A stretch of 64,000 bases of DNA, taken from NCBI GenBank assembly GCA_016458225.1, contig JAEMGR010000032.1, forward strand, positions 1 to 64,000. Reading direction: 5' to 3'. Below the pieces are notes generated by a model that saw only the letters and a program-made list of their open reading frames with translations, made no database searches and was not told the origin of the DNA. Within the stretch, counting starts at the first letter, position 1, and every line of letters begins with the position of its first letter. This stretch comes from Myxococcaceae bacterium JPH2. Lineage in GTDB: Bacteria; Myxococcota; Myxococcia; Myxococcales; Myxococcaceae. This document shows, piece by piece, positions 46,993 to 50,259 of the stretch. A program made the position numbers and the translations under genes.

Positions 46993-47862
46993 CTACTTCT
47001 TGTCCTGACGCGACATCTTCACGAGCGAGGCGACGGACGCCTGGCCGAGGCCGCGGTTCATGTTGCTCGGGTCCTTGGGGTCCTCGGCCCAGAAGCGGAA
47101 GATGACGGTGCGCGGATCATCCGCCTTGAGTTCGACGGGGAAGGGCGCCTGGAAGAAGCCCGGCGCGTCCTCGGAGCCGGGAGGCAGGGTGCCGCCCTGG
47201 GCCACTGGCTGCCACTCCAGCTCCTTGTCGAGGGTCGACCACATCAGCTTGTCCAGGGCGATGGGCTTGTCCACGAGGGCGAAGTCCACCTGGCGCACGT
47301 GGATGACGGTGCCCGTGGTGTTGCTGAGCACCACGCCTGGATCGACGGCGACGAGGTCGTCCCGGAAGTTGGCCCACTGGTGCCCCACGGCGATCACGTC
47401 GCCGATGAAGATGCGCTGCTTGGTCCAGTAGAACGGGGGCAGGTTGCCCGCGTTGTGGCCCTTGGTCATCCCCGCCACGGGCGAGTTGGTGCAGAAGCCG
47501 ATGTGCGCGATCTCACCCGGCTGCACCCACGCGGTGTTCGACTGGAAGTGCAGATCCGTGACGTTGCCCGAGTGCACCTCGCGCGGCGTACCGAACGGGT
47601 TCAGGCTGCCCAGGTAGTGGGTGCAGATCTTCGTCGGACCCGTCAGCGTGACGTGCAGATCGTTGGCGGCGTTCGGCGTGTTGTTGGTGATGTCCACGTT
47701 GTAGCAGAACTCGGTGCACTCGGTGGAGCCGGGGGGCATGGGGGGCGGCGGCCAGCTCGGGATGTAGCTGCTGAGCGCGGAGGCGCTGACGCCCGTGGTG
47801 ACGACCGCGGCTGCGGCCAGGAGGAGGGCGCGCTTGGCGCCGAAGCGGGGGAGGAAGCTCAC
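46993..47862 (-). CDS. Exported hypothetical protein
   Basis: A 289-residue protein with GTG at 47862 and signal peptide (FLPRFGAKRALLLAAAAVV, cleavage near SASA). The mature part starts LSSYIPSWPPPPMPPG and contains Cys residues (CTEFCYNVDITN; KICTHYL; GFCTNSP) that may form disulfides. Asp/Asn-rich strands suggest a beta-rich domain. I recognise no family. It is likely periplasmic or secreted. Upstream (47863-48173) is a 311-nt divergent interval with no gene, presumably a promoter region. Confidence 0.7.
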   Translation of the reverse strand: MSFLPRFGAKRALLLAAAAVVTTGVSASALSSYIPSWPPPPMPPGSTECTEFCYNVDITNNTPNAANDLHVTLTGPTKICTHYLGSLNPFGTPREVHSGNVTDLHFQSNTAWVQPGEIAHIGFCTNSPVAGMTKGHNAGNLPPFYWTKQRIFIGDVIAVGHQWANFRDDLVAVDPGVVLSNTTGTVIHVRQVDFALVDKPIALDKLMWSTLDKELEWQPVAQGGTLPPGSEDAPGFFQAPFPVELKADDPRTVIFRFWAEDPKDPSNMNRGLGQASVASLVKMSRQDKK

Positions 47863-48173
47863 GTGTCCGAGACCTCTGCCCCGAGCTGGGGCGGCTGGTG
47901 GGAGCCCGCTCTCTGAGCGTGAACTGAGCCATGCTCCGCGTGTGTCAGCGGCCTGGCTGCATGGGGCGCGGGGAGTAGCGCGCGAGGTCACGAATCGCGC
48001 GCCGCTGTGACCTGTCCAGCCACTGGCGCGCCGAGGACTGGGGCGCCTGGCGCTGCCCTTTGGGGAAGGCGCCGATGGGGGGGCGTCAATGGCAGACAGG
48101 AGCACGTGACTGTCCTTGCGGCGCTTGGGTTGTCTGGCGCGACTCAGGCTCCGCCGCCTACAGTGCGGCCGGC

Positions 48174-49169
48174 ATGAGTGGATTCCTCGATGTGGTGGTT
48201 GAAGTGGGAGACGTGACGGACATCCGCGCTGACGCGGTCCTGCTCAAGTTCGCGCAGGGCTTCCATGGCGCGGATGGCGCGGTGTCACGCCGCTTGTCGG
48301 CGGTGGGCATCTCGCCCACCTTGCTGCAGCTGAAGCCCGGCGAGCACCGCTTCATCGACACGCAAGGGGGATTGGGGGCACCGCTCGCGCTGTTTCTGGG
48401 CACGGCGCGGCTGCGGGAGTTCGACTATCACCGCATCCGTGAGTTCGCCGGCCAGGCGCTCCAGGTGCTGGAGTCTCGGCCCGAGGTGAAGCACCTCGCG
48501 GGGCCCGTGCATGGGCCCAACTACGGACTCGACGAGGACGAGGCCGTGCTCGCGTTGGTGGGCGGGATGGTGGATGCCTTTCAGCAGGGGGTGGGGCCTC
48601 GGGAGCTCGCGCGCATCACCGTGGTGGAGATCCAACCCAAGCGCGTGACGCGAATGCGCAAGGCATTGGAGCTGGGCCTCACCGGCGCGCCCGGAGTCGA
48701 GCCGCTGCCGGGTGGCGTGGGCTTCCGCATCCAGCGCATGCGGCGGTTCATCGCTCAGCCGCCCATGGTGAGCGCGGGTGCGCCCGCCCAGGAGAAGCCG
48801 CACGCCTTCGTCGCGATGCCCTTCGCGCCCGAACTGGAGGACACCTTCCATTACGGTATCCAGGGGCCCGTCAAGGCGGCCGGACTCCTGTGTGAGCGCG
48901 TGGATCAGGCCGTGTTCGATGGGCCCATCATCCAGCGCATCCGCGACCGCATCGACACGGCGAAGGTGGTCATCGCGGACCTGTCCTTGGCCAATCCCAA
49001 TGTCTATCTGGAAGTCGGCTACGCCTGGGGACGTGGCAAGCCCACCATCCTCCTCGTGCGCGACTTGCGTGAGCTGCGCTTCGACGTCGCCAGCTACCGA
49101 TGTCTGGAATATCGAAGCATCCGGAACCTGGAGGAGCTGCTGACGCGCGAGCTGCAACGGCTCGGGTGA
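48174..49169 (+). CDS. Macro/M17-N-like plus NDT/TIR-like fusion protein
   Basis: A 331-residue protein with no signal sequence. Residues 8-170 look like a macro or leucyl-aminopeptidase-N (M17_N) domain: VGDVTDIRADAVLLKFAQGF, GAVSRRL, LGTARLREFDYHRIREFAGQ. Residues 205-300 match a nucleoside-deoxyribosyltransferase/TIR-like fold: FVAMPFAPELEDTFHYGIQG, RIDTAKVVIADLSLANPNVY and EVGYAWGRGKPTILLVRD. Glu280 aligns with the possible catalytic Glu. Such domains hydrolyse nucleosides or NAD. The gene ends 4 nt before the convergent PLP gene. Fusion of an ADP-ribose-type domain to this domain is striking; function unknown. Confidence 0.6.
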   Translation: MSGFLDVVVEVGDVTDIRADAVLLKFAQGFHGADGAVSRRLSAVGISPTLLQLKPGEHRFIDTQGGLGAPLALFLGTARLREFDYHRIREFAGQALQVLESRPEVKHLAGPVHGPNYGLDEDEAVLALVGGMVDAFQQGVGPRELARITVVEIQPKRVTRMRKALELGLTGAPGVEPLPGGVGFRIQRMRRFIAQPPMVSAGAPAQEKPHAFVAMPFAPELEDTFHYGIQGPVKAAGLLCERVDQAVFDGPIIQRIRDRIDTAKVVIADLSLANPNVYLEVGYAWGRGKPTILLVRDLRELRFDVASYRCLEYRSIRNLEELLTRELQRLG

Positions 49170-49173
49170 GGTT

Positions 49174-50259
49174 TCACCAACCGCGCGCGGCCACGTCCCA
49201 GGTCGCCACCGGCTGACCGCCTTCCAGCACGTGCAGGCGCGCGTGCAGGTTCACCGAGGCGCAGACGTGGTTGGGAATCACCCGCACGCGCTCGCCCACG
49301 CGGGGGCGCCATGGGGTGGCGGACAGGTCCAGCAGCCCGTGCTCTTCGGACAGGCTGCGCACCCCCACCTCGGGGTGCTCGCGCACCACGCCGTAGCCGG
49401 GCGCGGGGCCTTCCTCCTTGGCGAGCGCCTTCGAGCCCGCGTCGATGACCGCCTGTCCCGGCACGGCCGTGCTCACCACCGTGGCCAGGACCGAGTAGGC
49501 GCACTCGGACAGGTCGCACGCGCCCACGCTCGCGCTGTTGCGGTCGTTGAAGATGTTGATGCCGGGGCGGATCTCCGTGAGTCCCGCCACTTCATGCGAG
49601 CGCCACAACGTCGGTGTCGAGCCGCCGCTCACCACCTCGGGCGCCAGGCCTTGAGCGCGCAAGGCCTCGATGAACGCGCTCAGGCGGATGGACTGCTCGC
49701 GCAGCAAGGGGCGCAGCTCGTCCTGCGGGGCGCGCAGGTGTCCTGGGTAGAAGATGAGGCCGCGCAACGTGACGCCCGGCGCCTCGCGGACCGCCTGGGC
49801 CAGCGACACGGCCTCCTCGGGCGAGGCCACGCCGACGCGGCGCATGCCCATGTCCAGCTCGACGAGCACGCTCACCGGACGGCCCGAGGCGCGCGCGGCG
49901 CGAGACAGCCCCGCCAGCACCTCGCGCGAGTCGAGCGCCACGGAGAGGCGGACCTCGGGCGGCAGCGCCATGAGCCGCGCGAGCGTGGCCTCTCCGACGG
50001 GGGGATAGGCCAGCAGCACATCTCGGGCGACGGTGGACATCACCTCGGCCTCCCGCACGGTGGCCACGGTGATGCCGTCAGCGCCGGCCTCGAGTTGGAG
50101 CGCGGTGAGCTGGGGCGTCTTGTGCGTCTTGGTGTGAGGACGCCAGCGCAACCCGTGCTCGCGCGTATATGCGGCCACGCGCTGGAGGTTGGCCTTCACG
50201 AGGTCCAGGTCCACCACGGCGGCGGGCGTGTCGAGCTCGGCGAGCGAGGGCGTGGGCAT
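49174..50259 (-). CDS. DSD1-type PLP enzyme (D-serine dehydratase/D-threonine aldolase-like)
   Basis: A 361-residue alanine-racemase-fold type III PLP enzyme. The PLP lysine is in WRPHTKTHK (K44 likely). ELDTPAAVVDLDLVKANLQR is typical of the D-threonine aldolase/DSD1 family. The C-terminal domain has the metal-binding PNHVCASVN, the zinc-binding feature of eukaryotic D-serine dehydratase. It should degrade a D-amino acid; the exact substrate is unknown. It ends 4 nt from the convergent fusion gene. Upstream, 39 nt away, is another minus-strand hypothetical gene. Confidence 0.88.
   Translation of the reverse strand: MPTPSLAELDTPAAVVDLDLVKANLQRVAAYTREHGLRWRPHTKTHKTPQLTALQLEAGADGITVATVREAEVMSTVARDVLLAYPPVGEATLARLMALPPEVRLSVALDSREVLAGLSRAARASGRPVSVLVELDMGMRRVGVASPEEAVSLAQAVREAPGVTLRGLIFYPGHLRAPQDELRPLLREQSIRLSAFIEALRAQGLAPEVVSGGSTPTLWRSHEVAGLTEIRPGINIFNDRNSASVGACDLSECAYSVLATVVSTAVPGQAVIDAGSKALAKEEGPAPGYGVVREHPEVGVRSLSEEHGLLDLSATPWRPRVGERVRVIPNHVCASVNLHARLHVLEGGQPVATWDVAARGW

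Follow-up and report, generated by a model that had tools for sequence, protein, structure and literature searches.

Fusion of an M17 aminopeptidase-type N-terminal domain to an NDT/TIR-like domain in a Myxococcaceae bacterium and in other bacteria and archaea

What is the likely role of a small protein whose first half resembles part of a leucyl aminopeptidase and whose second half resembles nucleoside deoxyribosyltransferases (NDT) and TIR domains? The gene that raises this question lies on contig JAEMGR010000032.1 of Myxococcaceae bacterium JPH2 (GenBank GCA_016458225.1), in the 64,000-nucleotide stretch of DNA that was analyzed as a whole and is referred to here as the window. A preliminary description made from the sequence had proposed a macro- or M17-N-like domain of ADP-ribose type joined to an NDT/TIR-like effector. 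Here we examine both domains, the family to which the gene belongs and its genetic contexts, and we weigh the roles that these could support.

A conserved two-domain gene

The reading frame is open throughout its 331 codons, from an ATG at 48174 to a TGA at 49167-49169, and close orthologues start at the same ATG. The frame is a real gene, since its dN/dS against orthologues is about 0.04-0.3, and it is under purifying selection. The AlphaFold2 model of the protein contains two confident domains (mean pLDDT 91.8, pTM 0.89). The fusion proposed at this locus is borne out by the gene, by the model and by 64 full-length members. Its features are as follows.

48174-49169, + strand: whole gene, M17-N domain fused to an NDT/TIR-like domain, 331 aa
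48174-48689, + strand: N-domain (residues 1-172), divergent M17 leucyl aminopeptidase N-terminal domain without the metallopeptidase domain
48510-48542, + strand: HG-x-x-x-GLDE-x-E loop (residues 113-123), the most conserved stretch of the N-domain
48690-48779, + strand: variable linker (residues 173-202), modelled with lower confidence
48780-49166, + strand: C-domain (residues 203-331), NDT/DNPH1/TIR-like alpha/beta domain
48807-48824, + strand: FVAMPF motif (residues 212-217)
48993-49028, + strand: NPNVYLEVGYAW motif (residues 274-285), with the predicted catalytic E280 at 49011-49013

Of 96 relatives found by scanning species genomes, we kept the best 80. Most of these best 80 cover the query end to end; those from Myxococcota include Corallococcus, Myxococcus, Pyxidicoccus, Archangium and Hyalangium, while those beyond this phylum share about 36-45% identity and occur in Acidobacteriota, Planctomycetota, Melainabacteria, Cyanobacteria, Chloroflexota, Verrucomicrobiota, Bacteroidota, Chlorobiota, Pseudomonadota, Actinomycetota and methanogens. 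The non-redundant full-length set comprises 64 members from about 14 phyla, archaea included, with identity down to about 33%. Both halves stay joined across the family, and the fusion is intact across phyla. Residues invariant in all 64 members are K25, G76, Y85, G114 and D120 in the first half and F212, A214, C240, G250, I260, N276-E280, G282-W285 and F303 in the second.

Identity of the two domains

By sequence the N-domain is M17-N, and by modelled fold it is macro-like. Profile comparison with hhalign matched it to M17-N (PF02789) over 166 columns (98.8%, E 5.6e-17) but to Macro domains over only 24 columns, with a probability of 43%. In Foldseek, the fold resembled leucyl aminopeptidases as well as macro domains (E about 1e-8 to 1e-5). 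Where Macro domains carry the NAAN loop, the N-domain has KFAQ. An ADP-ribose macro domain was therefore rejected for this half, and the short profile match and the missing NAAN loop place it outside PF01661, a family marked by NAAN/GGG ADP-ribose loops; of the earlier assignment, the M17-N similarity and the macro-like fold stand, whereas the ADP-ribose type does not. Placement in Peptidase_M17_N rests on profile similarity across the domain, and single-sequence Pfam searches missed this family in the window protein and found a weak match in two of the 64 members.

In genomes from the cyanobacterial phylum, the N-domain profile also picks out M17 peptidases by their N-domains (E to 3e-13), and every one of these peptidases carries NTDAEGR. 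Homology to the M17 leucyl aminopeptidases extends over the full length of the N-domain, and the HG..G.D core of the loop, including the invariant D120, is common to the fusion and to M17 N-domains. Unlike these enzymes, the fusion has no metallopeptidase domain, so that it falls outside the M17 leucyl aminopeptidases: the NDT/TIR-like residues 203-331 replace the part that bears NTDAEGR. Because the profile match is to M17-N and not to Macro, and because the HG..G.D core is shared, the N-domain is an aminopeptidase N-domain put to other use. Residues that are conserved in the fusion but not in M17 peptidases are Y85, T111, E121, E123 and R157; K25, invariant in the fusion, is present in nine of 26 M17 peptidases. 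Residue 111 (48504-48506), which adjoins the conserved HG loop, is P in the window protein and T in 63 of the 63 other members; P111 can also be seen in Citreicoccus inhibens.

In five pairs of sequences, the N-domain had a dN/dS about 2-3.5 times as high as the C-domain had, and in the closest pair, where changes are few, 8 times as high; the GC-rich DNA probably makes dS too low in this comparison. This faster evolution might fit a sensor.

The motifs that had suggested an NDT/TIR-like second half are present: AMPF at residues 214-217, IADL at 267-270 and NPNVYLEVGYA at 274-284. We take FVAMPF to occupy the position of the NDT first-strand substrate motif. E280, the conservation of which had been set beforehand as a test of the proposal, is the same in every one of the 64 non-redundant members, and the surrounding NVYLEVGYAW motif is nearly all invariant. 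The C-domain model (pLDDT 89.4) was matched by Foldseek to NDT (8qc0, E 2e-6), to MilB (4ohb, TM 0.79) and to DNPH1, followed by the TIR domains of SPARTA (3.7e-4) and SARM1. In a phmmer alignment E280 is paired with Glu103 of MilB, which is mutated to Ala in 4ohb, the E103A entry. Its fold and the alignment of this predicted catalytic Glu place the C-domain within the NDT/DNPH1/TIR-like superfamily. A Pfam match of the window protein to RNA_pol_A_CTD (E 0.09) was judged to be due to chance.

Within this superfamily the C-domain shares with NDT, DNPH1 and MilB (PF05014, DRHyd) its fold and the position of the Glu, and 61 of the 64 members match PF05014 weakly. It differs from them in having its own FVAMPF and NPNVYLEVGYAW motifs, in the attached M17-N domain and in its score, which at 25.2 bits lies below the PF05014 gathering cut-off of 28.8 and leaves the window C-domain outside Nuc_deoxyrib_tr. 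All 64 members match the PADLOC TIR effector profile PDLC00733 (E down to 7e-16), whereas a classical NDT from a relative, a control consisting of a single protein, does not. We understand this profile to derive from CBASS. As judged from these profiles, the curated NDT family is more distant from the C-half than the effector is. Like TIR-type immune effectors (the PADLOC profile, SPARTA TIR and the DUF4062 of Swarozyc), it has a single conserved catalytic-type Glu; unlike them, the fusion carries a different N-domain, and no CBASS, Argonaute or Swarozyc partner was seen adjoining the window gene. The preliminary description had also considered that both halves might match ordinary housekeeping families, which applies to the N-half, although only through the non-catalytic domain of such a family. 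NAD+ and nucleotides are both possible substrates: the structural model leans towards nucleotides and the profile affinity towards TIR effectors.

Inheritance, neighbours and related architectures

The host genome carries one copy of the fusion gene. It is flanked by a divergent gene (46993-48105, - strand) without a Pfam match, the product of which probably has a signal peptide, and by a convergent D-serine-dehydratase-like gene (49174-50259, - strand) separated from it by 4 bp. Window neighbours identified by Pfam were HSP20, LuxR, MbtH, D-Ser dehydratase-like, prolyl oligopeptidase and RDD proteins; among those examined in this way we found no known defence genes and, at this locus, no nucleotidyltransferase that could be the CD-NTase partner of CBASS. 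The window protein has no NCBIfam match.

Near full-length matches occur in 62 of 195 Myxococcota genomes, at a single place in each. In Corallococcus, Myxococcus and Pyxidicoccus the fusion gene and the D-serine-dehydratase-like gene adjoin or lie no more than about 2.3 kb apart, and because this place is kept, inheritance in these genera is vertical; in Myxococcaceae the fusion is a solitary, single-copy chromosomal gene with conserved synteny. Contig BNCN01000010.1 (L039), titled Comamonas sp. KCTC 72670, shows the Myxococcus gene order around the fusion gene; it is probably mistitled, or else its assembly is that of a myxobacterium. One Myxococcaceae genome (L018, G017:C16) has an extra copy of the N-domain only, with two in-frame TAG codons, which is probably a decayed paralogue.

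Over the whole family, the maximum-likelihood tree requires 23 label changes over 14 phylum groups, for which the minimum is 13, and contains well-supported pairs that cross phyla, for example Gallionellales with Chlorobiaceae. This mixing points to horizontal spread of the fusion gene between phyla, a reading in which metagenome bins can mislead. Carriage on mobile elements was rejected: phage and plasmid collections yielded C-domain-only matches and viral contigs a single partial match, neither including a full-length fusion, and blastn of E. coli genomes, a search that distant relatives can escape, gave no nucleotide match. Matches in PHROGs were likewise to the C-domain only, in families of unknown function.

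Most copies of the fusion gene are solitary, and no partner gene recurs across phyla among the 61 loci clustered; partners are local. In three Planctomycetota bins (L086, L090, L094) the gene sits inside a run conserved between bins, the most complete of which encodes a MoxR-type AAA ATPase, the fusion and then a vWA protein between two unknown proteins. Pairing of MoxR with vWA is the core of described conflict systems (PMC7159879). In an Accumulibacter bin, the fusion gene is followed after about 45 bp by one for a RelA_SpoT-LSDAT(SLOG)-RyR protein (L095:9077-11845).

Both modules can be found in other proteins. The N-domain profile matches a segment within proteins of 1,050-1,160 aa from Myxococcota and Planctomycetota. 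Two Myxococcota examples have, by Pfam, a C-terminal CHAT domain and a front part from alpha/beta-hydrolase or lipase families, and one Myxococcota lipase-CHAT protein passes the Pfam M17-N cut-off (32.5 versus 23.4 bits); two Planctomycetota proteins show the same architecture by eye. This arrangement of lipase-like front, central M17-N and C-terminal CHAT (L130-L134 in Myxococcota; L233:2098-5514 and L234:1802-5008 in Planctomycetota) is possibly an undescribed effector architecture. These proteins share the M17-N module with the fusion and differ from it in their greater length and in their effectors, an alpha/beta hydrolase and a CHAT protease. The aminopeptidase N-domain therefore recurs beside effector-type enzymes. 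Relatives of the C-domain are fused elsewhere to DUF4062, TIR_2 and TPR-S; in two proteins (L187:4333-5835, L192:4342-5628) they are joined to DUF4062 and to a TIR domain, giving two TIR-like domains per chain. According to one report, DUF4062 proteins are NADases that act against phages and are related to TIR and NDT domains (PMC13174449).

A candidate sensor-effector enzyme and its alternatives

The reading that we favour, with a probability of roughly 0.55, is a one-protein sensor-effector N-glycosidase that acts on NAD or nucleotides under the control of its M17-N domain, with a stress or abortive-infection role. The N-half would be a leucyl-aminopeptidase N-domain recruited without its peptidase, probably binding a ligand, driving oligomerisation, or both. 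A trigger sensed by this domain would switch on the C-domain, an NDT/TIR-like N-glycosidase in which E280 would attack NAD+ or a nucleotide at its N-glycosidic bond, and the outcome could be substrate depletion or a signal product that serves a stress or abortive-infection response. Fusion of a sensor or binding domain with an effector, as first suggested, is plausible. A role in conflict is favoured by the affinity of the C-domain to the PADLOC TIR effector and by the partners that it shares, and disfavoured by the solitary place that the gene keeps in Myxococcaceae and by the lack of the fusion in the phage and plasmid collections. Against the sensor-effector reading, most loci lack a conserved partner and no full-length phage, plasmid or viral copy was found; against its NADase side, the C-domain is structurally most similar to nucleoside and nucleotide enzymes. 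Since the gene is single-copy and convergent with the D-serine-dehydratase-like gene across genera, a steady physiological role fits as well as defence does.

An immune-only version, with an abortive-infection NADase dedicated to phage defence and an M17-N domain that detects an infection metabolite or phage component directly, seems to us somewhat unlikely. The TIR-type affinity, the MoxR/vWA and RelA-SLOG-RyR neighbours, the mixing of phyla and the faster N-domain all agree with it, but the window lineage has conserved synteny and no defence-island context, and defence-type neighbours are few overall. Also unlikely, in our judgement, is a housekeeping (deoxy)nucleoside-monophosphate N-glycosidase of nucleotide sanitation, similar to DNPH1 or MilB, in which M17-N would serve for assembly only and no immune role would exist. 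NDT, MilB and DNPH1 are indeed the best structural matches, and strong purifying selection and the solitary, vertical, syntenic gene of Myxococcaceae are as expected of such an enzyme; its patchy distribution, with clades that cross phyla, the effector profile matched by every member and not by a classical NDT, and sister domains that sit with TIR, DUF4062 and CHAT argue against it. A C-domain that serves as a nucleotide receptor without catalysis, as is thought for some SLOG/NDT-like domains, is improbable: related domains of signalling proteins can be receptors (PMC9503650), but here E280 and almost its entire motif are invariant. Least probable is a self-contained counterpart of macro-type Thoeris, in which TIR is paired with an ADPR-binding macro domain (ThsB and ThsA; PMC11204291): the fusion likewise combines a TIR-like enzyme, here proposed to make an ADP-ribose derivative, with a macro-like fold that would bind it, but it is one chain rather than a gene pair with a recurrent partner, and its N-domain is M17-N without the NAAN loop.

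More speculatively, and with a good deal less confidence than we place in the sensor-effector enzyme, M17-N domains may have been detached and reused as a sensor or switch for several chemistries of immune effector, an NDT/TIR-like N-glycosidase in the fusion and a lipase with a CHAT protease in Myxococcota and Planctomycetota, the fusion being a stand-alone, single-gene enzyme of defence or programmed dormancy in bacteria and archaea. The preliminary description had called the fusion undescribed, and we likewise found no description of it or of M17-N with CHAT in the literature searched, which is weak evidence of novelty as subscription journals lay largely outside the search.

The fusion lends itself to direct testing, since the protein is small, its model is confident and a single catalytic residue is predicted. 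If the sensor-effector reading is correct, effectors that cleave NAD or nucleotides would gain an intact, widespread single-gene family, and the aminopeptidase N-domain would be a previously unrecognised regulatory module, common to the fusion and to lipase-CHAT proteins.
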